Shown here piece after piece: positions 8,937 through 19,001 of a DNA stretch of 64,000 nucleotides (position 1 is the stretch's first letter; the number at the start of each line of letters is the position of its first letter). The DNA is taken from NCBI RefSeq assembly GCF_000621705.1, contig NZ_JHXO01000007.1, positions 372,001 to 436,000 on the forward strand, in the 5' to 3' direction. Position numbers and translations under genes: made by a program. Below the pieces are notes generated by a model that was not told the DNA's origin, did not search any database, and saw only the letters and a list, made by a program, of their open reading frames with translations. This stretch comes from Prolixibacter bellariivorans ATCC BAA-1284 (GTDB taxonomy: Bacteria > Bacteroidota > Bacteroidia > Bacteroidales > Prolixibacteraceae).

Positions 8937-9321
8937 TTACGTTTATTTGAAAGTTTTATTGTTTAATTTTTAGGATTTTTTCAAGGAATTCTAACTCATT
9001 CAATGGACGTTAGCGTTATTTCTTCCGGTAAACCAGATTAATATAACATAAAAATACACAAAAAAAGTTCAGGTTAAAAACTTAAACATATCTGCTGCCT
9101 AAGCTGAGAGCCATCGGCCTGTCCCCGTGTTATTATCATCGCTTACTGCGATAAATTCAAAAAAACACACGCCATCCTACACTAATGCATATCAATTATT
9201 GCACGCCCTTCACGTGTTTGTTGTACCAGGAAACAAAAAAAAATCATTTCGATAGGGGGATTTTCGAAGAAAGTTGTCACAGCATCGACGAAACAATTTA
9301 TTAAACGTAATAGAGAAAAAA
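8937..9321. other. Intergenic region between divergent genes, no gene seen
   Basis: About 385 AT-rich bases between the Sel1-repeat gene and the GVxNI-repeat gene. I see no credible coding frame and no consensus TAnnTTTG box for the rightward gene. A GC-richer patch around 9095-9130 (CTGCTGCCTAAGCTGAGAGC onward) stands out, but I cannot assign it to an RNA family. Confidence 0.4.
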
Positions 9322-10467
9322 ATGAACAAGGTTTATTTCTTATTAGCGACGATGCTGTTCGTTTTAGGCATTGTAAAAGTAACTGAAGCCCAGAATGAAA
9401 AAAAAGCTCAGGTTACATTCTTCTACCCCATTGGTTCTTCCGGCCTCAATTCAACCAATTACAATTACCACTTTTCTTTCAATACCATTTATGGAATTAC
9501 TGGTGGTGTAAACGGCTTTGAATTAGGTTCTGTTGGGAACATTGCCAGAGGTAATGTAAAAGGATTACAAATCGCCGGAGTTTTCAATATAGCTACTCCA
9601 GGCAGTTTGGCAGGGACAATTAGGGCTGCAGCAGACAGTAGCGAAACCGCAAATGGCTTACAACTTGCCGGGGTAAGTAACATGGTGAAAGGAAATCAAA
9701 AAGGGTGGCAAATAGCCGGAGTTTGCAACACAACCACCGGAAATAGCTCTGGCGTTGTCCTGTCAGGCGTTTCAAACATAACCCGGAAAGATGTAAACGG
9801 AGCAATGGTTTCTGGTGTTTTTAATTCCTCCAGAGCAATAAAAGGGGTGCAGTTATCGACCATTAATATTGCTACGAAAAGTGTAACCGGAGCTCAAATT
9901 GGGGTAGTGAATATTGCTCCCAGAGGAAAAGGATTCCAATTAGGAGTAGTCAATATTGGCCAAACTGCCAGTGATTCGATTATACCTCTTGGACTACTTA
10001 ACATTTTTAAAGATGGTTACTATGCTTTTGAATTGTCAACCGACGAAAAATTATTCAGCCAAATCTCATACAAGATGGGGGTTGAAAAGCTGTATACCAT
10101 TTTTCAGTTTGGCGTTAGCTTTCGTAACAATACGCAGTTTTACAGTGCGGGATCTGGCCTGGGAAGCATCTTCGATATCACTCCAAAGAATAAAATCAAC
10201 CTGGAGCTCATTACGACCCAATTTTTCGAAAATGATTTTAAATACATACCTGATTTCCTGAATCAAGCTAATCTGGATTATCAATATAATTTGACCAAAC
10301 ACATCGCTTTAAAAATCGGACCAACATTCAATTGTTATATTGAAAAGAACAATAAGAAAACAAATGATGCTATTCGGATCCCTTATTCTATTATTGAAGC
10401 CAAAGGCCGTTACCACACGACCTCCCTATGGATTGGCGCAAACGCAGGAGTAGTAATCAAATTATAA
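9322..10467 (+). CDS. Secreted GVxNI-repeat (LA_2272-like) surface protein
   Basis: 381 residues from the ATG at 9322, chosen because a clear signal peptide (to VTEAQ, residue 23) starts there; the frame is open from 9274. About nine repeats of ~20-24 residues follow, of the pattern GxQ(L/I)AGVxNI, for example KGLQIAGVFNIA, NGLQLAGVSNM and GAQIGVVNIAPRG. A C-terminal region of about 140 residues with alternating hydrophobic strands resembles an outer-membrane barrel or beta sandwich. The repeats recall the LA_2272-type surface lipoprotein repeats of Leptospira; no lipobox is present here. The protein at 12111-13991 shares the pre-repeat region, repeats and C-terminus. Likely cell-envelope location; function unknown. 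Confidence 0.75.
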   Translation: MNKVYFLLATMLFVLGIVKVTEAQNEKKAQVTFFYPIGSSGLNSTNYNYHFSFNTIYGITGGVNGFELGSVGNIARGNVKGLQIAGVFNIATPGSLAGTIRAAADSSETANGLQLAGVSNMVKGNQKGWQIAGVCNTTTGNSSGVVLSGVSNITRKDVNGAMVSGVFNSSRAIKGVQLSTINIATKSVTGAQIGVVNIAPRGKGFQLGVVNIGQTASDSIIPLGLLNIFKDGYYAFELSTDEKLFSQISYKMGVEKLYTIFQFGVSFRNNTQFYSAGSGLGSIFDITPKNKINLELITTQFFENDFKYIPDFLNQANLDYQYNLTKHIALKIGPTFNCYIEKNNKKTNDAIRIPYSIIEAKGRYHTTSLWIGANAGVVIKL

Positions 10468-10572
10468 AAATCAAAATTATCATTGTTGCTGCGGATCGTT
10501 TTTTTCTCATACTTTTATACAGCAATTACTAATTTCGATATTGAGATCGATTCGCAGCTACAATCTTTTTGA

Positions 10573-11172
10573 ATGGAAGCTACCGGTACTAAATGGCAAA
10601 CAAAATCTGGTTTCGAAATATTGTTTAGAAAACACTATTCAGTTCTGTGTGCCTATGCTTATGGTTTTGTAGCCGACTACGGTCTGAGTGAGGATATTGT
10701 TCAGGAAGTGTTTTTCAAATTATGGACGGACAAAGGGAGAATTGCCATAGAAACATCCGTTAAGGCCTATCTATATCAAATGGTTCGTAATACGTCGCTT
10801 AATTATTTAAAACACAAAAACGTGATAAAACAATATGAAATAGCAAATAAAGATGAGAGCAACTATATAGGAGAAAGCCTGGATGAACTGCTAATCGGGA
10901 AAGAACTAAACGCTAAAATTCAAGCAGCAATTGAAAAATTACCGACCGAACGTCGGAAAGTTTTTTTGCTGAGCCGAATGGACGGATTGAAATATAAAGA
11001 AATTGCTGAAAAGCTCAATATCTCAATCAAAACCGTTGAGAACCAAATGGGAAAAGCACTTTCCACTTTAAGAACGGAACTGGCAGGAGAATCCCCGTTG
11101 GTTTTATTTGCTTTGTTTTACAGGGCACGAACAATAAATAAGCAAACATTACATAACCAAAAGTGTGAATAA
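10573..11172 (+). CDS. ECF RNA polymerase sigma factor (FecI-like, Bacteroidota type)
   Basis: 199 residues. Region 2 lies at about 14-80 (ILFRKHY, SEDIVQEVFFKLW, VKAYLYQMVRNTSLNYLK). Region 4 lies at about 115-168 (LPTERRKVFLLSRMDGLKYKEIAEKLNISIKTVE). No extra domain is present. It should direct RNA polymerase to a small set of envelope-related promoters, probably including its own operon. Its stop codon overlaps the start of the FecR gene by 8 bases, which implies translational coupling. The third gene of the operon carries an STN domain, so the set looks like a cell-surface signalling relay. Confidence 0.95.
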   Translation: MEATGTKWQTKSGFEILFRKHYSVLCAYAYGFVADYGLSEDIVQEVFFKLWTDKGRIAIETSVKAYLYQMVRNTSLNYLKHKNVIKQYEIANKDESNYIGESLDELLIGKELNAKIQAAIEKLPTERRKVFLLSRMDGLKYKEIAEKLNISIKTVENQMGKALSTLRTELAGESPLVLFALFYRARTINKQTLHNQKCE

Positions 11173-12121
11173 GAAGTCGAAACATATCGATGATGCTTTA
11201 TTAGCCAAATTTCTGTCGGGCGAAGCGACTTCCGCCGATAAGGAAATGGTTTCCGAGTGGATGGAGGAATCGGAACAAAACATGGCTTATTTTGAGAGTT
11301 TCGCAACCATTTGGTTAAACAGCACTGCCGATGAAAAAAAACGTCCCAATCCGGAAGCAGCCTGGCATAAGATGGAACCCCTACTCGCTAAGGCGAGGTA
11401 CAAAATCATCCTTCCATACCTGGGAGCAATTGCAGCGATTCTGATTATTGCCTTTTTCCTATTCACTCCGGAAAAATCTGACAAAGTAACATTTACAGCC
11501 GATAATCAGTCTCAAAAGGAAGTTCTGCCGGATGGAACGGAGGTTATTCTCGATGCTGGCTCAAAGCTTGACTACTTTTTCGATAAGAAATCAAATATCC
11601 GAATAGCCCATCTCACAGGAAAGGCCTTTTTTCATGTAAAAAGAGACACTGCACATGCGTTTATCGTTAAAACTCTTTATGGGCAAGTAGAGGTTCTCGG
11701 CACACAGTTTAATGTGAACGTGATTAGAAATGACGGGGTTTATGTTGATGTCCTGTCTGGTGTTGTGAAGCTTTCGAAACCAGATGTAAATTCGTTGACG
11801 CTTCGCAAAGGAGAAAGTGGTTTTATTCCGGCCGATAATAACCTGATTAGGGAAACAAAGCAGGCCCCTTCAGAATTCTTCAGCATTGACAAGACGTTAA
11901 TTTTTAACAACGTACCTCTTGGTGAGGTATTTTCGAACCTTGAGAAATGTTATTCCGTCAGAATTGATATTGATAATCCGGTCAATACAAACTTGCGCTT
12001 TACTTCGCAGTTTAAAGACAACAGCATTAACGAAATTCTGAATGTAATTACCCAGACCTACGGATTGAAATTTAAAAAATCGAATAATGAATATTATATT
12101 ACCCTAAAAAGTGAAGATTAA
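11165..12121 (+). CDS. FecR-type anti-sigma factor
   Basis: 318 residues starting at a GTG that overlaps the sigma gene by 8 bases. The N-terminal cytoplasmic part (1-78) would hold the sigma factor. One membrane helix spans 81-100 (IILPYLGAIAAILIIAFFLF). The periplasmic FecR domain (about 110-205) has QKEVLPDGTEVILDAGS, VLGTQFNV and VDVLSGVVKL. A DUF4974-like C-terminal domain (about 245-315, LIFNNVPLGEVFSNLEKCY) has the STN-like fold used to contact a receptor. In FecIRA-type systems this protein receives a signal from the STN domain of an outer-membrane receptor. Here the adjacent STN protein is not a TonB receptor. Confidence 0.94.
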   Translation: MNKKSKHIDDALLAKFLSGEATSADKEMVSEWMEESEQNMAYFESFATIWLNSTADEKKRPNPEAAWHKMEPLLAKARYKIILPYLGAIAAILIIAFFLFTPEKSDKVTFTADNQSQKEVLPDGTEVILDAGSKLDYFFDKKSNIRIAHLTGKAFFHVKRDTAHAFIVKTLYGQVEVLGTQFNVNVIRNDGVYVDVLSGVVKLSKPDVNSLTLRKGESGFIPADNNLIRETKQAPSEFFSIDKTLIFNNVPLGEVFSNLEKCYSVRIDIDNPVNTNLRFTSQFKDNSINEILNVITQTYGLKFKKSNNEYYITLKSED

Positions 12122-13991
12122 GTATTTCATTCTGTTTTTTCTGAGCTTTTTGTTTCTCAGTCAAGTCGCAAAAACGCAAAATCTGCTGAATATTAGAATT
12201 AATATTAATGTTCAGCATACAACCATTGGCGAAATACTTCATGACATTGAAAAACAGGGAAACTTCTTTTTTGCTTACAATCCCGACAACATCGACGAAA
12301 CCAAAACCGTGTCTCTCTCAGCCCGGGATATTAAAGTTCGTGATGCGCTAAAGGAATTGTTTCAACATGAGGCAACGTTCCAACAAGTCGAAAATCATAT
12401 CATCATCAACAGCACACCAAAAAGCGAAGCGAAAAATTCATTCCAAATCACTGGTTACATCGCCAATAGCTCAGATGCACCGCTGGACTCTGCCATTGTT
12501 TATGACCCGGAAAATCAAAAACTGGTCATTAGCCAGAAAGACGGCTCATTTGCCTTTGATTTTGACACAAATGATAAAAACATCAGCCTTTTCGTCAGAC
12601 TTCGCTCTTATAAAGACACGGTTATATATGTTACCCCGGGAAACCAGAGAATCGATTTGAGGCTGCGCCAGAGGGAATCTTCTCCCATCGCCCTGACTCC
12701 CATCGGAACGGAGGATGCTGAGCTGAAACTGAAAGACTTCGAAAATTTGTCACTGGTGCAAAGGCTCGTACCTCCGGAAGCAATTTATGCCTCCTCCAAT
12801 CTTAGTACCGAAAAAATAATGCCGGTACAGCTTTCTTTTTTGCCCAAAGCCGGCACCAATTCTTTTGTCAAAGGATTAAGAGTCAACCATGCTTCTTTCA
12901 ATATCCTGGCGGGCTATTCAAAAGGGCTAAGCGGAGCAGAATTTGGTGGGATTGCCAATATTATTCAACAAGAAGTCAGAGGTTTCCAGGCTGCGGGCAT
13001 TGCCAACGTTGTTTTAGGTGATGTACATGGAACACAATTTTCGGGAATCTACACCATGGACCTAAGCAATGTCGACGGTTTTCAGGTGAGTGGTGTATAT
13101 AACTCTCTGCGGGGTACTATTTCCGGGGGTCAAATCAGTGGCATTTCAAATATTGCCATGAAAACTGTCAATGGAGCCCAGGTTGCCGGTGTTTTAAATG
13201 TAGCGAAAGGAAAAGTAACGGGAGTTCAGATAAGCGGTGTGATTAATATCGACCACGATGAGGCATCCGGGGCCGAAATTGCCGGAGTAGCCAACATTTC
13301 GAAAAAAATGGCCACAGGTCTGCAACTGGCGGGGATATATAATGAAAGTGGAGAAATAAACGGTATGCAACTTTCCTCGCTAATCAATCTGAACCGAAAC
13401 AATGCTAAAGGAGCTCAAATAACGACGATTCTGAATAAAACAAAGACGTTAAACGGCTTGCAATTCGGACTTGTTAATATCGCAGACACCATCAATGCGG
13501 GCTTTCAGGTAGGTTTGATTAATATTGTGAAACACGGCACCTACTCGCTTGAGTTATCTCATAACGAAACTTTTCCAATCGATATTAATTTTAAAACCGG
13601 AAATCCGAAACTATATTCAATAATTAATCTGGCTGCAGAAAATAATAGCTTAGGATTCGGATATGGTCTCGGGAGTAACTTCCCGTTAAACAAAAAATTT
13701 GCTTTTTGGTCAGATATCAGTAGCACTTCCATACATGATTCTAAAAAGCTGACAGCTCAAGGTCTTAAATTAACCATGAGACATGGATTGAATTATGATC
13801 TATTTAAACACCTCAGTCTCAGAGGCGGTATTTCCGAGAACTATTTTATTCCCAAAAAATCAGCGGAAAAGCCAACAGGAGAAATTCTAATCACAAGCAA
13901 TGCTAACCACATTGAAGGAGCGCTCCAGAACGGCAAAAACAGCTTTTGGAGTGGATGGTTTTTGGGAATACAGATATCCAACGTATTTTGA
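12111..13991 (+). CDS. STN + CarboxypepD_reg-like + GVxNI-repeat envelope protein
   Basis: 626 residues from a GTG that overlaps the FecR stop by 11 bases. The signal peptide is residues 1-22. An STN domain follows (about 28-100, HTTIGEILHDIEKQGNFFF, VSLSARDIKVRDALKELF), then a carboxypeptidase-regulatory-like domain (about 108-188). The repeat region (265-475) has about ten GxQxAGVxNI units, and the C-terminal ~150 residues look strand-rich. The repeats and both flanks resemble the protein at 9322-10467 (compare GLINIVKHGTYSLELS with GLLNIFKDGYYAFELS), so the two are paralogues and this one gained a signalling N-terminus. STN and CarboxypepD_reg domains are usual at the front of TonB receptors, but no plug or TonB barrel is visible here. 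Likely the signal-input partner of FecR. Confidence 0.8.
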   Translation: MKIKYFILFFLSFLFLSQVAKTQNLLNIRININVQHTTIGEILHDIEKQGNFFFAYNPDNIDETKTVSLSARDIKVRDALKELFQHEATFQQVENHIIINSTPKSEAKNSFQITGYIANSSDAPLDSAIVYDPENQKLVISQKDGSFAFDFDTNDKNISLFVRLRSYKDTVIYVTPGNQRIDLRLRQRESSPIALTPIGTEDAELKLKDFENLSLVQRLVPPEAIYASSNLSTEKIMPVQLSFLPKAGTNSFVKGLRVNHASFNILAGYSKGLSGAEFGGIANIIQQEVRGFQAAGIANVVLGDVHGTQFSGIYTMDLSNVDGFQVSGVYNSLRGTISGGQISGISNIAMKTVNGAQVAGVLNVAKGKVTGVQISGVINIDHDEASGAEIAGVANISKKMATGLQLAGIYNESGEINGMQLSSLINLNRNNAKGAQITTILNKTKTLNGLQFGLVNIADTINAGFQVGLINIVKHGTYSLELSHNETFPIDINFKTGNPKLYSIINLAAENNSLGFGYGLGSNFPLNKKFAFWSDISSTSIHDSKKLTAQGLKLTMRHGLNYDLFKHLSLRGGISENYFIPKKSAEKPTGEILITSNANHIEGALQNGKNSFWSGWFLGIQISNVF

Positions 13992-14034
13992 TTCTCCCGG
14001 TCGAATTTTTCACCCACAAGTGATAAAAAAACAA

Positions 14035-14064
14035 AAACTCCGCATCAATATGATCGTGGAGTTT
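14035..14064 (+). terminator. Terminator of the sigma/FecR/STN operon
   Basis: Arms AAACTCC (14035-14041) and GGAGTTT (14058-14064), followed on the plus strand by AGTTTTTGTGTT. It lies 44 bases after the stop at 13991. Confidence 0.6.
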
Positions 14065-14245
14065 AGTTTTTGTGTTGACCAAACCTGAGAAATGTCGAAC
14101 TTTTTGCTTGAAGATTGCAATACTCTGATTAAGTTTATGATTGCTGAAATTCAGAAGCAGAAACTTCATTTCTAATAAAACTGCAAACTAGTAGACAAAA
14201 GATTACAAAGCATTAATTTACTAGTTTTTAACAATATAATTCCGT

Positions 14246-17200
14246 ATGAGTAAAGCAGGAACTTATTCAAACCAGGGAGATGATTATCAAAGAGCAATAG
14301 CTATAAACTGGCTAATTGAATTATTAACCAATGATGCAATTGAATATATACAGGTAGAGTCCAATGGATTATCTGGAATAAAAGAAAAAGTTCCGGTTGA
14401 CGATATTGTCGTTGTCTGTAAAAATGGCTCAAGAAGGCACATTCAAGCCAAAAAAAATCAAACAAATGCTAAAGTATGGTCAATAAAGGATTGGGGAAGC
14501 GAACTACCAAAGATTCTTCTTCAATTAGAACAAGGCGAACACATTACTGTTGAATTGTACTCGTCCACGCCGTTAGGGCAATTTACAACCCTACCTGAGG
14601 AATGTCGCATACACCCAAATTTCGGTGATTTTAAAGAGCAGTTAAGCAGGCCGAAAACCGAAGCACTTTCCATATTGGTAGATGAATGGGAGCGTTCTGA
14701 AGAAGAAATTTTCTACTTATTAAAAAGAGTCCGTACTGGTTCACATCATAATACTGAAAAGTGGATTAAAATGAACGAGGAGTCTTTGAGCAGACTCGTG
14801 ACACATCCGGCTCTTGCGTTAGACACGCTGGAAACTTTTGTAAACAGATACCAATCAAAGGACTTAGTCGGCAAATTCGAAATCAGGGCACAAGATGTAT
14901 GGGGAGAATTAGCAGGTAAAGGATTAACAAGACTACCGAATTTCAGCAAAAAAGAAATTATTCAGCAATTCCAAAGAACATCAGTCATTGGCAGAAATGA
15001 TTGGAAAAGAACCATTACAGGCGAAAAGATAAGAAGGAAAGAACTTGATGACACGCTGAAACAAATTCGAGAAAATAAAAGGACCATTTTAATTCAGGAT
15101 GGACCAGGTAGTGGAAAAACATGCTTGCTATTGGACCTGGCTGATGTGATTGATGGTGACAACAAGTTTCAGTTGCTATTTATAAAAGGGGATCGGTTTG
15201 CCAAGATTAATTCCGAGGAGAATTCCCTACCCAAAGAAATTGTGGAAAGTTGCGGCTTGTTAAGCTCTGTTTCACATGTTGTAGTTGTTATAGATTCTTT
15301 GGATGTTCTTTCCTGCCAACGCGATCACGCCGCACTAAATTTCTTTCTAAAGCTAATTGATCAACTACAGATTATACAAAATGTCACAGTTGTCGCAGCT
15401 TGTCGGGAATTCGATTTAAAATACGACCCAAAACTTCGTGATCGAAAATGGGATGTTCAGATTAAGCTTAGTGACTTTAACTTTCAAAATACTGTCATTC
15501 CAATCCTAAATAAGTTAAATGTTAATGTTGGACAATTAAATCCAGATTTGAAGGAGTTGCTGTGCCTTCCTCAAAATTTAAGCCTTTTTGAAAGATTATC
15601 AGGTTTTCAAGGTGTATTTAATGTTCGTACCACCTACGATTTATATAAGGCTTTTATCGATTTTTCATTGTTACAAGATACAGATCTTGTAGATCACATT
15701 TTTGAAAAAATATTTTCTTTTGCGGACAAGCTGTTAAAAGAGAGGGAGCACAGTCTTCCTAAAACGGTGATAAATATTGACGAACACATTCTTCACCACT
15801 TGATAAGTAAAGGTGTTCTAAACGAGGAAGCTGATGGCAAAGTGGGTTTTAGTCATCAAACCTTGTTTGATAATTTTGTAGCAAACAATGCTTTAAAAAG
15901 CGGAATTACACTTACTCAACTGATATTGAGTCATCCCCCTTTACCTTTTTACCGGCCATCAGTCCGCAGTTATTTGTTTTTCGTGAGGAGTCAATCGTTT
16001 AAATCCTTTAGCCAAAATATTCGCAAAACTCTTTCAAATGATGATATAGCTTATCATTTCAAAAGGTTAGTAGTGGAAACATACGCTGAAATGATTCCCA
16101 AAAATGATGATTGGAATTTGATAAGATGGATGTTTTTGAGGCAAAATGATCTGTTTAAAAGGTTTCTTGATGCTTTAACATCAAGTCATTGGTTTGAATT
16201 AATTGCAAACAAATGGTATCCATCTTTTGCTCATCAGCCAGATAATTATGAATGGCTTTTCACCTTCTTATGGAAACTGGATGCATGGATGAATTTTTAC
16301 CCCAATGAGACTGTAGAAATATGGAATAATGCTCTAAAGGAAAACTGGGGCGGAAATAGTGTATGGATAATATGTCATAGCTTGACACGATTTAAGCATT
16401 ATCGTGTTGATGGTGTAAAAGATCTTATTCACACGCTTAAAGAATCCAATAATACGGACTCTCATTCTATGGGAAAAATTTACTGTAATTACATAGAAGC
16501 TACAGGCGATGGTTATGAAACGTTGTGGGATTGGATGACTCGTGATATTTCGATAAAAGAAATGAGCAACTGGGGTAAAGAAAATGAACTGTATTGCGAA
16601 AGCCATGACCTAAAAGATGGTACTTTTCTTCAAAAACATCTTATAAAATCAGAAGAATTTCGAAATCTTGTATTGAAGTCATTATTGAACTGGGTGAAAG
16701 GCTCTTCTTATTGGAAAGAAGATGGACTGACCTACAAATTATTAGAATACACAAGTATTCCGAATAATATTTCTCGTTCTGGCAGCATCTATATCGAGAA
16801 TATATCAATATTGATGCAAGCTGTAGAAGAAGCGTTTTTGAACCATGCAAAAAATAATACTGAATGGTGGAAGAAAGAGGAAACAAAACTGAGAACATCT
16901 AAAGAATTGGCTTTTCGATATATATTGATCAAGGCATATTTGGAAAATATTGAGACAAATTTAGATGGAATAACCAGTCAACTATTGGACAAAGAGCTTA
17001 TTGAAGCTGGTGAATTAAACTATGAATTGGGTTTACTAATAAATGAATCTTTTCACCTGCTTCCAGAGCAAATTCAAGATAAAATAGTAAATGTAATTGA
17101 AAACTTATTCCCTGAGCATACGGAACAAGAAGAACATGTTAAGAATTGGCATAATCGTGTTAAGTTTGAATTATTTGTCCGAATACCAGCTTATTTGAGA

Positions 17201-18811
17201 GCAAATAGTGTAAATAATTTCATTAACAAGTTTATACCACAATTTGGTTACTACCTCCCCGTTAGGGAAAAATATTCAAGTGGTGGATGGGTAGGTTCTC
17301 CGGTAAGCGCCGAAATTTTAGATAACTTAAGTATTGAAGCGTTGTTCACCCTTTTCAACTATTATAAGGATTACAAAGGGCATAGTTTCCATCCAGCTGA
17401 TGATAATAAAGGAGGATTGCCACAATTAAGCAGTACTCTTTCTATCTTGGCTAAGAATAACCCTGCTAAATACCTAAAAATAATAAACAACCCTAAGTTC
17501 GATAAATTTTCAGATTCAATTGAAGAAGCAATATTGGATGGGGTCGGCTATCATATTAGTTGTAGATTAGGGAAAGTAAATGACAGTAGTTATAAACCAA
17601 TAAGCCCCCTGCCTGACATCAATAATATCGCTCATAATCTGCTTGACAGAATAGAAATAAATCACTCTTCATTTCAAAAAGATATTACTTATGCAAGGAT
17701 GATTGAAAATTGTATTGAAGCATTGCCAAGTGAAGAGGATTTAAAGCGGGCTACTAAATTACTTTTACCTTTGAGTAACCATCCTGATCCAGACGGCAAG
17801 AGGTTAAATATTCAAGACCTAAATGGCGATAAAGTTACATCTAATGATATTTTAACCAAATCATTAAACTGCACAAGAGGTGTTGTAGCCAACTCTGCTA
17901 TAGCAATATTGAATAAGTTACTGGATTTGGGGGTAAAACCATTTGTATCCATTACTAGCTTAACAGAGAAACTGGCAAACGATAAGGCACAAGAGGTTCA
18001 AGCTGCTTTACTATGGGGTCTGCCTTACACAGGTTATAAAAGCAAAGAATTGGGTTGGCAGATTTTTAATATCATCTTTAGTAAGAAGCAAACACTTTTG
18101 TGGGGGGCAGGCGAAAAATTCTTGTATCATCAATACTACCAAAATTATGAAATGGTAAGACCATGCCTGGAGCGGATAAAAAATGAAGCAATAAATGAAG
18201 CGGGGGCAACGTGGGGTAGACTTTCTGCTTTGTGTATGATTCAAGGCCATATTAATCAACAAGTTTTCTTCAGTGAATTAAAAGAAATAAATAAAAAAGA
18301 TGTTTGGGATGGAGCATTAAGTGTATTTATAGCCAATTTGGAGAAAAATAAAGATGGATTATGTCAAGAATCATTTAGAGTGTTTATTAAGGAAAACAAC
18401 ATTCAGAAGGAATTCGGACATAAAATAGATGGAGCTTTTAGGCTAGATGAAAAAGGTAAATACATCAATGTTGAAACGGGTAAGTTATTCATAAACTCTT
18501 TGATTCTAGATGATGATAAAGAGCCCCAAATGCATTCTTTTATCGACTGGATCGAATATCAAGCAATAATTGATCCGGTGGTGGCATTAGAGTTATGCGA
18601 AAGCTTGCTTTCTAAATTGCAATCATTTGAATCCCAACCACGTTTATGGCATTCAAAACCTTTGATTTCTACATTAACCACAATTTTGCGCGAGGCAGAT
18701 GAATTGGATGATTTAGAACTTATTAATCGAGCTGTGCATTTGCAAGATCAATTCTTATTAATGGGGATTGATGGAATGAATGAATATTTTGCAGAGGCTG
18801 CAACGTTGTAA
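14246..18811 (+). CDS. Avs-like defence protein: Cap4-type nuclease + STAND ATPase + helical repeats
   Basis: 1521 residues in three parts. Residues 1-210 resemble Cap4/DUF4297 dsDNA nucleases: DDYQRAIAINWLIELL, then PD-(D/E)xK candidates Glu38, Asp52 (VDDIVV) and Gln67-Ala-Lys69 (IQAKK). Residues 245-560 form a P-loop ATPase with Walker A GPGSGKT (286-292) and Walker B VVVVIDSLD (Asp350). The rest, about 950 residues, is predicted helical and repeat-like without a recognised enzyme motif. The order effector-STAND-long helical sensor is that of Avs anti-phage proteins, which sense a phage protein, oligomerise and cut DNA. The gene stands alone with its own flanks and is clearly more AT-rich than its neighbours, which suggests transfer. 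The family assignment is inference from motifs; the trigger is unknown. Confidence 0.75.
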   Translation: MSKAGTYSNQGDDYQRAIAINWLIELLTNDAIEYIQVESNGLSGIKEKVPVDDIVVVCKNGSRRHIQAKKNQTNAKVWSIKDWGSELPKILLQLEQGEHITVELYSSTPLGQFTTLPEECRIHPNFGDFKEQLSRPKTEALSILVDEWERSEEEIFYLLKRVRTGSHHNTEKWIKMNEESLSRLVTHPALALDTLETFVNRYQSKDLVGKFEIRAQDVWGELAGKGLTRLPNFSKKEIIQQFQRTSVIGRNDWKRTITGEKIRRKELDDTLKQIRENKRTILIQDGPGSGKTCLLLDLADVIDGDNKFQLLFIKGDRFAKINSEENSLPKEIVESCGLLSSVSHVVVVIDSLDVLSCQRDHAALNFFLKLIDQLQIIQNVTVVAACREFDLKYDPKLRDRKWDVQIKLSDFNFQNTVIPILNKLNVNVGQLNPDLKELLCLPQNLSLFERLSGFQGVFNVRTTYDLYKAFIDFSLLQDTDLVDHIFEKIFSFADKLLKEREHSLPKTVINIDEHILHHLISKGVLNEEADGKVGFSHQTLFDNFVANNALKSGITLTQLILSHPPLPFYRPSVRSYLFFVRSQSFKSFSQNIRKTLSNDDIAYHFKRLVVETYAEMIPKNDDWNLIRWMFLRQNDLFKRFLDALTSSHWFELIANKWYPSFAHQPDNYEWLFTFLWKLDAWMNFYPNETVEIWNNALKENWGGNSVWIICHSLTRFKHYRVDGVKDLIHTLKESNNTDSHSMGKIYCNYIEATGDGYETLWDWMTRDISIKEMSNWGKENELYCESHDLKDGTFLQKHLIKSEEFRNLVLKSLLNWVKGSSYWKEDGLTYKLLEYTSIPNNISRSGSIYIENISILMQAVEEAFLNHAKNNTEWWKKEETKLRTSKELAFRYILIKAYLENIETNLDGITSQLLDKELIEAGELNYELGLLINESFHLLPEQIQDKIVNVIENLFPEHTEQEEHVKNWHNRVKFELFVRIPAYLRANSVNNFINKFIPQFGYYLPVREKYSSGGWVGSPVSAEILDNLSIEALFTLFNYYKDYKGHSFHPADDNKGGLPQLSSTLSILAKNNPAKYLKIINNPKFDKFSDSIEEAILDGVGYHISCRLGKVNDSSYKPISPLPDINNIAHNLLDRIEINHSSFQKDITYARMIENCIEALPSEEDLKRATKLLLPLSNHPDPDGKRLNIQDLNGDKVTSNDILTKSLNCTRGVVANSAIAILNKLLDLGVKPFVSITSLTEKLANDKAQEVQAALLWGLPYTGYKSKELGWQIFNIIFSKKQTLLWGAGEKFLYHQYYQNYEMVRPCLERIKNEAINEAGATWGRLSALCMIQGHINQQVFFSELKEINKKDVWDGALSVFIANLEKNKDGLCQESFRVFIKENNIQKEFGHKIDGAFRLDEKGKYINVETGKLFINSLILDDDKEPQMHSFIDWIEYQAIIDPVVALELCESLLSKLQSFESQPRLWHSKPLISTLTTILREADELDDLELINRAVHLQDQFLLMGIDGMNEYFAEAATL

Positions 18812-18901
18812 TTCACTTATCATTAATCACTGCATTCTTTCAGGCATCCAGCGCAATGTTCTTGCTTTAAAAAGTTTTCCTTTCTGTTTCCATCAAAAAA
18901 C

Positions 18902-18925
18902 AAAAGCCGCATGATAGCGGCTTTT
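18902..18925 (-). terminator. Terminator of tRNA-Arg
   Basis: Arms AAAAGCCGC (18902-18910) and GCGGCTTTT (18917-18925) around a 6-base loop. On the minus strand it is followed by GTTTTTTG. It lies directly after the tRNA 3' end, between the tRNA and the Avs-like gene. Confidence 0.8.
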
Positions 18926-18927
18926 CG

Positions 18928-19001
18928 TGATCCAGGCGGGACTCGAACCCGCAACCGGCAGCTTAGAAGGCTGCTGCTCTATCCAGTTGAGCTACCAGAC
19001 C
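18928..19001 (-). tRNA. tRNA-Arg (anticodon TCT)
   Basis: 74 bases on the minus strand. The D arm is GCTC/GAGC, the anticodon loop CTTCTAA reads anticodon TCT (codons AGA/AGG), and the T arm is GCGGG/CCCGC around TTCGAGT. The acceptor stem GGTCTGG pairs with CTGGATC through three G-U wobbles, which is weaker than usual but still pairs. The discriminator is A and no CCA is encoded. A -7 box lies upstream and a hairpin terminator follows. Confidence 0.95.

Follow-up and report, generated by a model that had tools for sequence, protein, structure and literature searches.

The 64,000-nucleotide stretch of the Prolixibacter bellariivorans ATCC BAA-1284 genome analyzed here (contig NZ_JHXO01000007.1, positions 372,001 to 436,000; hereafter the window) carries, at positions 14246-18811 of the plus strand, an intact open reading frame of 1521 codons with exact coordinates, in keeping with the 1521-residue single protein described in a first-pass annotation made from the DNA letters alone. 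By sequence and homology, the protein has a three-part layout, as that annotation had proposed, with an N-terminal nuclease, a central STAND ATPase, and a long C-terminal region. It is probably an Avs-like single-gene nuclease-STAND immune receptor that senses phage and acts by abortive infection. The features of the gene are as follows:

14246..18811, plus strand: single gene for the 1521-residue nuclease-STAND-sensor protein (open reading frame; full-length homologue PDB 9n00, E 5.5e-183)
14246..14845, plus strand: N-terminal nuclease domain, about residues 1-200 (motif conservation, LmuA in relatives; end approximate)
14399-14401, plus strand: nuclease motif position D52
14444-14452, plus strand: nuclease motif positions Q67-x-K69
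14993..15865, plus strand: STAND/NACHT-type NTPase core, about residues 250-540 (Pfam AAA, NACHT, conserved residues; end approximate)
15101-15121, plus strand: P-loop GPGSGKT, residues 286-292
15278-15295, plus strand: Walker B VVVVID, residues 345-350, with D353 just after
15878..18808, plus strand: C-terminal region, residues 545-1521, putative sensor (profile match to the 9n00 chain)

The nuclease residues Asp52 and Gln67-x-Lys69, the intact P-loop, and the Walker B Asp350 picked out in the first-pass annotation are all present and widely conserved. In an alignment of 70 rows (the query and 69 relatives), D52 was retained in 63/70, Q67 in 65/70, K69 in 64/70, and Q15 in 66/70. Just two full-length nuclease forms departed from the nuclease signature, L021 with E at position 52 and L043 with E at position 67; the remaining departing rows had other effectors (L016, L017, and L059) or a split gene, contig end, or missing start (L025, L065, and L071). 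K291, D350, D353, and R387 were retained in 70/70 rows, although for the first three this invariance is partly by construction because the search patterns spanned the P-loop and Walker B. The D...QxK arrangement, which we take to be the catalytic signature of Cap4 and LmuA, is present in the window protein and most relatives; the LmuA profile of PADLOC matched 4 of the 6 relatives scanned (best E 4.2e-9), and at E<=0.01 Pfam Cap4_nuclease matched 2 of 51 family members, and these weakly (best E 0.0024).

For the central part, Pfam AAA matched residues 286-406 of the window protein above the model cut-off (E 1.8e-7), nSTAND_NTPase5 matched under the Pfam cut-off (E 1.5e-4), and NACHT was found in 41/51 family members (E<=0.01). 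NCBIfam gave two weak matches near the P-loop (E 0.11 and 0.13) and nothing else, and PADLOC at E<=1 gave only two PDC-M54A candidate models, spanning the NTPase part to residue 622. The window protein thus shows the features by which we recognize a STAND protein: a central P-loop NTPase with Walker A and B motifs, flanked by an N-terminal effector and a C-terminal putative sensor. Within this last part, approximately 975 residues long, no Pfam domain was found at E<=1 (residues 545-1521), and alignment of the sensor region with itself by hhalign revealed no internal repeats. Mean pairwise identity was 0.55 at residues 1-120, 0.34-0.42 at 121-240, 0.53-0.61 at 241-660, and 0.32-0.55 from 661 onward; the C-terminal part is moderately conserved, not hypervariable, which would fit recognition of a conserved target.

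A full-length homologue of the protein has already been solved. By phmmer, residues 1-1515 of the window protein aligned with residues 1-1517 of the 1523-residue chain 9n00_A (E 5.5e-183; also 9n01 and 9yix), which these PDB entries label merely “AAA family ATPase.” In profile searches of the PDB, the N-terminal 600 residues matched the 9n00 chain at E 5.5e-293, and a 54-row profile of the C-terminal part matched it at E 0, with one chance match (E 0.76) besides. The window protein is, by this end-to-end homology and equal length, a member of the 9n00 family. Bit scores against 9n00 of 2430 for a Pseudomonas member, 2163 for a Tolumonas member, 714 for a cyanobacterial member, and 614 for the window protein place 9n00 in a large, mainly proteobacterial branch and not in that of the window protein. 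A literature search by entry codes and related words, with bioRxiv and most subscription papers outside its reach, recognized no paper on the 9n00 protein. Because the three entries hold a full-length homologue, the suggestion in the first-pass annotation of a new Avs type cannot stand in the sense of something unseen. Its claim of unusual size also fell: 62 full-length nuclease-type relatives, counted from the residue aligned to M1 of the window protein, were 1504-1548 residues long, 59/62 of them within 1500-1530. The gene, its motifs, its layout, and (see below) its acquisition were as first described.

The receptor family is widespread across phyla yet sparse within any group. Scanning with an alignment as the query gave 133 matched stretches, of which 91 were confirmed and 80 kept, and two viral contigs were added; with a single sequence as the query, the scan of genome contigs gave zero matches and that of viral contigs none. 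The phages collection gave no match to the family, and neither did E. coli, for which the query was the DNA of a Klebsiella member, so that distant copies could escape. The 70-row tree, built by a quick method and having several long branches and many rows from metagenome bins, covered 9 phyla (Bacteroidota, Pseudomonadota, Thermodesulfobacteriota, Nitrospirota, Cyanobacteriota, Chlorobiota, Ignavibacteriota, Myxococcota, and Minisyncoccota), which were intermixed. Counting the P. bellariivorans genome, where the family occurs at one place only (E<=0.001), members were found in 2/61 genomes of relatives and in 4/395 of the phylum (E<=1e-30); the cyanobacterial phylum, searched with a cyanobacterial query, had 2/386 (E<=1e-40). 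A second carrier in the Prolixibacteraceae is Puteibacter caeruleilacunae (locus L009, same as G019), with a gene 69% identical.

With an overall layout like that of Avs receptors and a similar length, the protein might have diverged from one of the named Avs types, Avs4 (1579 positions) being the nearest in length of the two NCBIfam Avs models consulted, but we consider this very unlikely. No Avs model of NCBIfam or PADLOC (PADLOC-DB 2, which we take to contain AVAST models) matched the window protein at E<=1, and no NCBIfam Avs model matched six relatives at E<=0.01, in line with the lack of a tie to any named type remarked on in the first-pass annotation. In the genome of Klebsiella grimontii, home to family member L032, the Avs4 model had no match at E<=0.01, and it gave sub-cut-off matches in 5/14 control genomes. 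Avs4 proteins at E<=1e-100 numbered zero in 369 genomes, and likewise zero in the controls. The PDB, where solved Avs3 and Avs4 chains are presumably present, gave the C-terminal profile no match at E<=10 to any other named receptor chain. The window protein falls outside the curated Avs2 and Avs4 models (NF041813 and NF041815), and membership in either type was rejected on these searches of the window protein, the six relatives, and genomes. The Avs2 model touched a single protein in the P. bellariivorans genome, below the cut-off (E 1.4e-5): a second STAND-like protein of 1410 residues on contig C6 (L114, 3933-8165), with a P-loop identified by eye. In short, the protein is Avs-like in layout and outside all Avs models tried.

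The gene lies in a segment that a genome of the same genus (G001) lacks. This genome is collinear with the window to position 14049 and resumes at 18923, with 20 bases between, and hence provides an empty site beside a tRNA gene found at the same site in G001, G002, and G003:

14050..18922, no strand: inserted segment of approximately 4.87 kb, gene plus flanks (G001 comparison; ends good to a few bases)
18927..19001, minus strand: tRNA-Arg(TCT) (ARAGORN), whose 3' end borders the insert

The GC content of the gene was 35.4%, versus 44.4% in the remainder of the window. Low GC and rarity favor insertion over loss, and we favor horizontal acquisition of the segment at the tRNA-Arg border. An AT-rich, acquired, monocistronic gene beside a tRNA gene, as the first-pass annotation had it, was thus confirmed: the same-strand upstream gene stops 254 bases before the start, beyond the insertion boundary, and what follows downstream, the tRNA and then a gene, lies on the opposite strand, so that the gene is solitary in practice. 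A block of approximately 5 kb at 9100-14049, which the window genome has in common with G001, is absent from G002 and G003 and shares the tRNA-Arg border, which marks the border as a repeated insertion site; its genes, named by eye, are sigma-factor-like, FecR-like anti-sigma, and two related surface-repeat genes. Among the open reading frames of the ~4.87-kb insert, no integrase-like gene was seen by eye, and the longest exact match in a search for attachment repeats around it was 11 A-rich bases, so we make no claim of a site-specific element.

Across 84 loci, two of which (L007 and L016) are one record, no constant partner gene was found; the largest single-linkage clusters of neighbors covered 16, 9, and 7 loci at varied distances, and a same-strand neighbor within 60 bases was present upstream in 14/81 loci and downstream in 6/76. 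PADLOC models matched at E<=1e-20 numbered 120 for neighbors within 3.5 kb (125 of 356 open reading frames sampled) versus 12 for those beyond 6 kb (125 of 260 sampled), and those near relatives included GajA, PD-T4-6, and a type I methyltransferase. An enrichment of defense genes near relatives is suggestive only, because the counts include many redundant models and no fewer than one for a transposase (TnsB).

An integrase-like gene family (named by eye) lay near the receptor in 9/84 loci (e.g., L064, 8112-9578), suggesting carriage on integrative elements. These neighbors, together with five cyanobacterial plasmid records that carry most of the protein, make competition with other elements plausible, and the targets of the same machine might then be plasmids, integrative elements, or gene-transfer agents and not lytic phages. 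We regard this as unlikely: GajA, PD-T4-6, and the type I methyltransferase near relatives are usually counted as anti-phage, yet they may hit plasmids too.

The record of effector exchange among relatives is unusually clear. At a single Rhodoferax locus (L059), a predicted GT4-conflict glycosyltransferase (E 4.3e-81) sits on an NTPase/sensor body 56% identical to that of the nuclease-bearing L045. Cyanobacterial bodies (L011, L012, L016, L017, and L023) share 65-73% mutual identity and are 57-61% identical to L018, and the cyanobacterial forms occur in four states: nuclease alone (L011, L023, and L018, with split copies L013 and L006); caspase plus a full-length nuclease that retains the D and K positions (L012 and L079, the latter a gene that ends at a contig edge and whose domains were read by eye); caspase joined to what remains of a nuclease, in which N has taken the place of D52 and K69 is missing (L016 and L008, plasmid copies that are nearly the same); and caspase without nuclease (L017). 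The caspase heads show, by eye, the His-Gly and Asp-Cys-Cys motifs of caspases. On the Nostoc plasmid L006, the two halves of the nuclease form are separated by a gene annotated as an IS630 transposase. Among the neighbors of the caspase form on the cyanobacterial conjugative plasmids L007 and L008 are a protein with a trypsin-like peptidase domain (an annotation of L008) and another member of the caspase family.

That the cyanobacterial caspase arrangement arose only once was rejected by the approximately unbiased test (p 0.000255; five caspase rows in a 16-row set), for which the group was defined with the domains and an earlier tree already known; 3/16 rows were fragments. Since the five rows do not form one clade, the caspase head has been acquired, lost, or swapped on more than one occasion, in one direction or the other. 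We tentatively propose, at a confidence just short of even, that the body, from approximately residue 240 onward, serves as a portable unit recognizing a single conserved phage feature that the tested Avs types do not cover, and that it is rearmed with nuclease, GT4-conflict glycosyltransferase, or caspase. Replacement may pass via an intermediate armed with both, whose nuclease could be under the control of the caspase; this idea comes from the presence of both domains in L012 and L079, the nuclease remnant in L016 and L008, and its disappearance in L017.

The nuclease and ATPase residues are conserved, the family spans phyla, the site is empty in G001, and the nuclease has been replaced by other effectors. 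To these supports for an Avs-like immune receptor are added the LmuA, AAA, NACHT, and nSTAND matches, the sparseness of the cross-phylum spread, and the PADLOC neighbor excess. Several observations weigh against this reading. The window protein itself matched neither Cap4 (Pfam) nor LmuA (PADLOC) at E<=1, the Cap4-like nuclease of the first-pass annotation being supported by its signature and by matches in relatives; the immediate neighbors in the window (by eye, an asnA-like gene and one with surface repeats) and those in Puteibacter, the closest relative and a different setting (by eye, a peptidase gene and hut-like genes), do not look defense-related; and the PADLOC figures count models, not proteins. 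One might also see in the protein an AAA ATPase with a regulatory or housekeeping role, joined to a nuclease-like fold, as the bare name in the PDB entries would allow; the patchy distribution, the empty site, the caspase and GT4-conflict exchange, and the retained nuclease signature make this extremely improbable.

For an Avs-like receptor, we infer phage sensing, oligomerization, DNA cleavage, and abortive infection by analogy with Avs receptors. Starting from a resting state, the C-terminal ~975 residues would recognize a conserved molecule from an infecting phage, upon which the central STAND ATPase would switch and then oligomerize; the oligomer would bring together and activate the N-terminal Cap4/LmuA-type nuclease, which would cut DNA and abort the infection through cell death or growth arrest. 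What lies in the window is then one representative of a whole receptor family, not a single gene, with one sensor body, a solved relative, and no fewer than three effectors; the shared body and the solved relative make what the sensor sees directly testable, and the cyanobacterial forms afford an uncommon look at a bacterial immune receptor changing its weapon.

Among known systems, the closest is the 9n00 protein, like the window protein in its nuclease, NTPase, and C-terminal parts and its near-equal length, yet distant (614 bits) and on another branch. The D...QxK signature is common to LmuA and Cap4, which act with partners in Lamassu and CBASS, respectively; here, in contrast, the nuclease is fused to a STAND receptor. 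Avs receptors, of which Avs1-Avs4 are activated by phage large terminase or portal, generally consist of effector, STAND NTPase, and C-terminal sensor. Single-protein nuclease-STAND types such as Avs4 share this order in one chain with the window protein, but no common C-terminal sequence was detected. The tripartite layout of Avs receptors is described for Avs5 in PMC12931631, and the main text of PMC13092281 makes no mention of Avs, caspase, or Cap4. In the literature searched, no report of a single-chain caspase-plus-nuclease STAND form was seen, which does not show that none exists. Caspase and nuclease are coupled in one defense system at canu loci, a likeness suggested by L012 and L079; in the canu prototype, according to PMC12799240, they are encoded by separate genes and the nuclease is akin to metallo-β-lactamase-fold pro-nucleases, whereas L012 and L079 appear to carry both domains in one STAND chain, with a nuclease of the Cap4/LmuA type.

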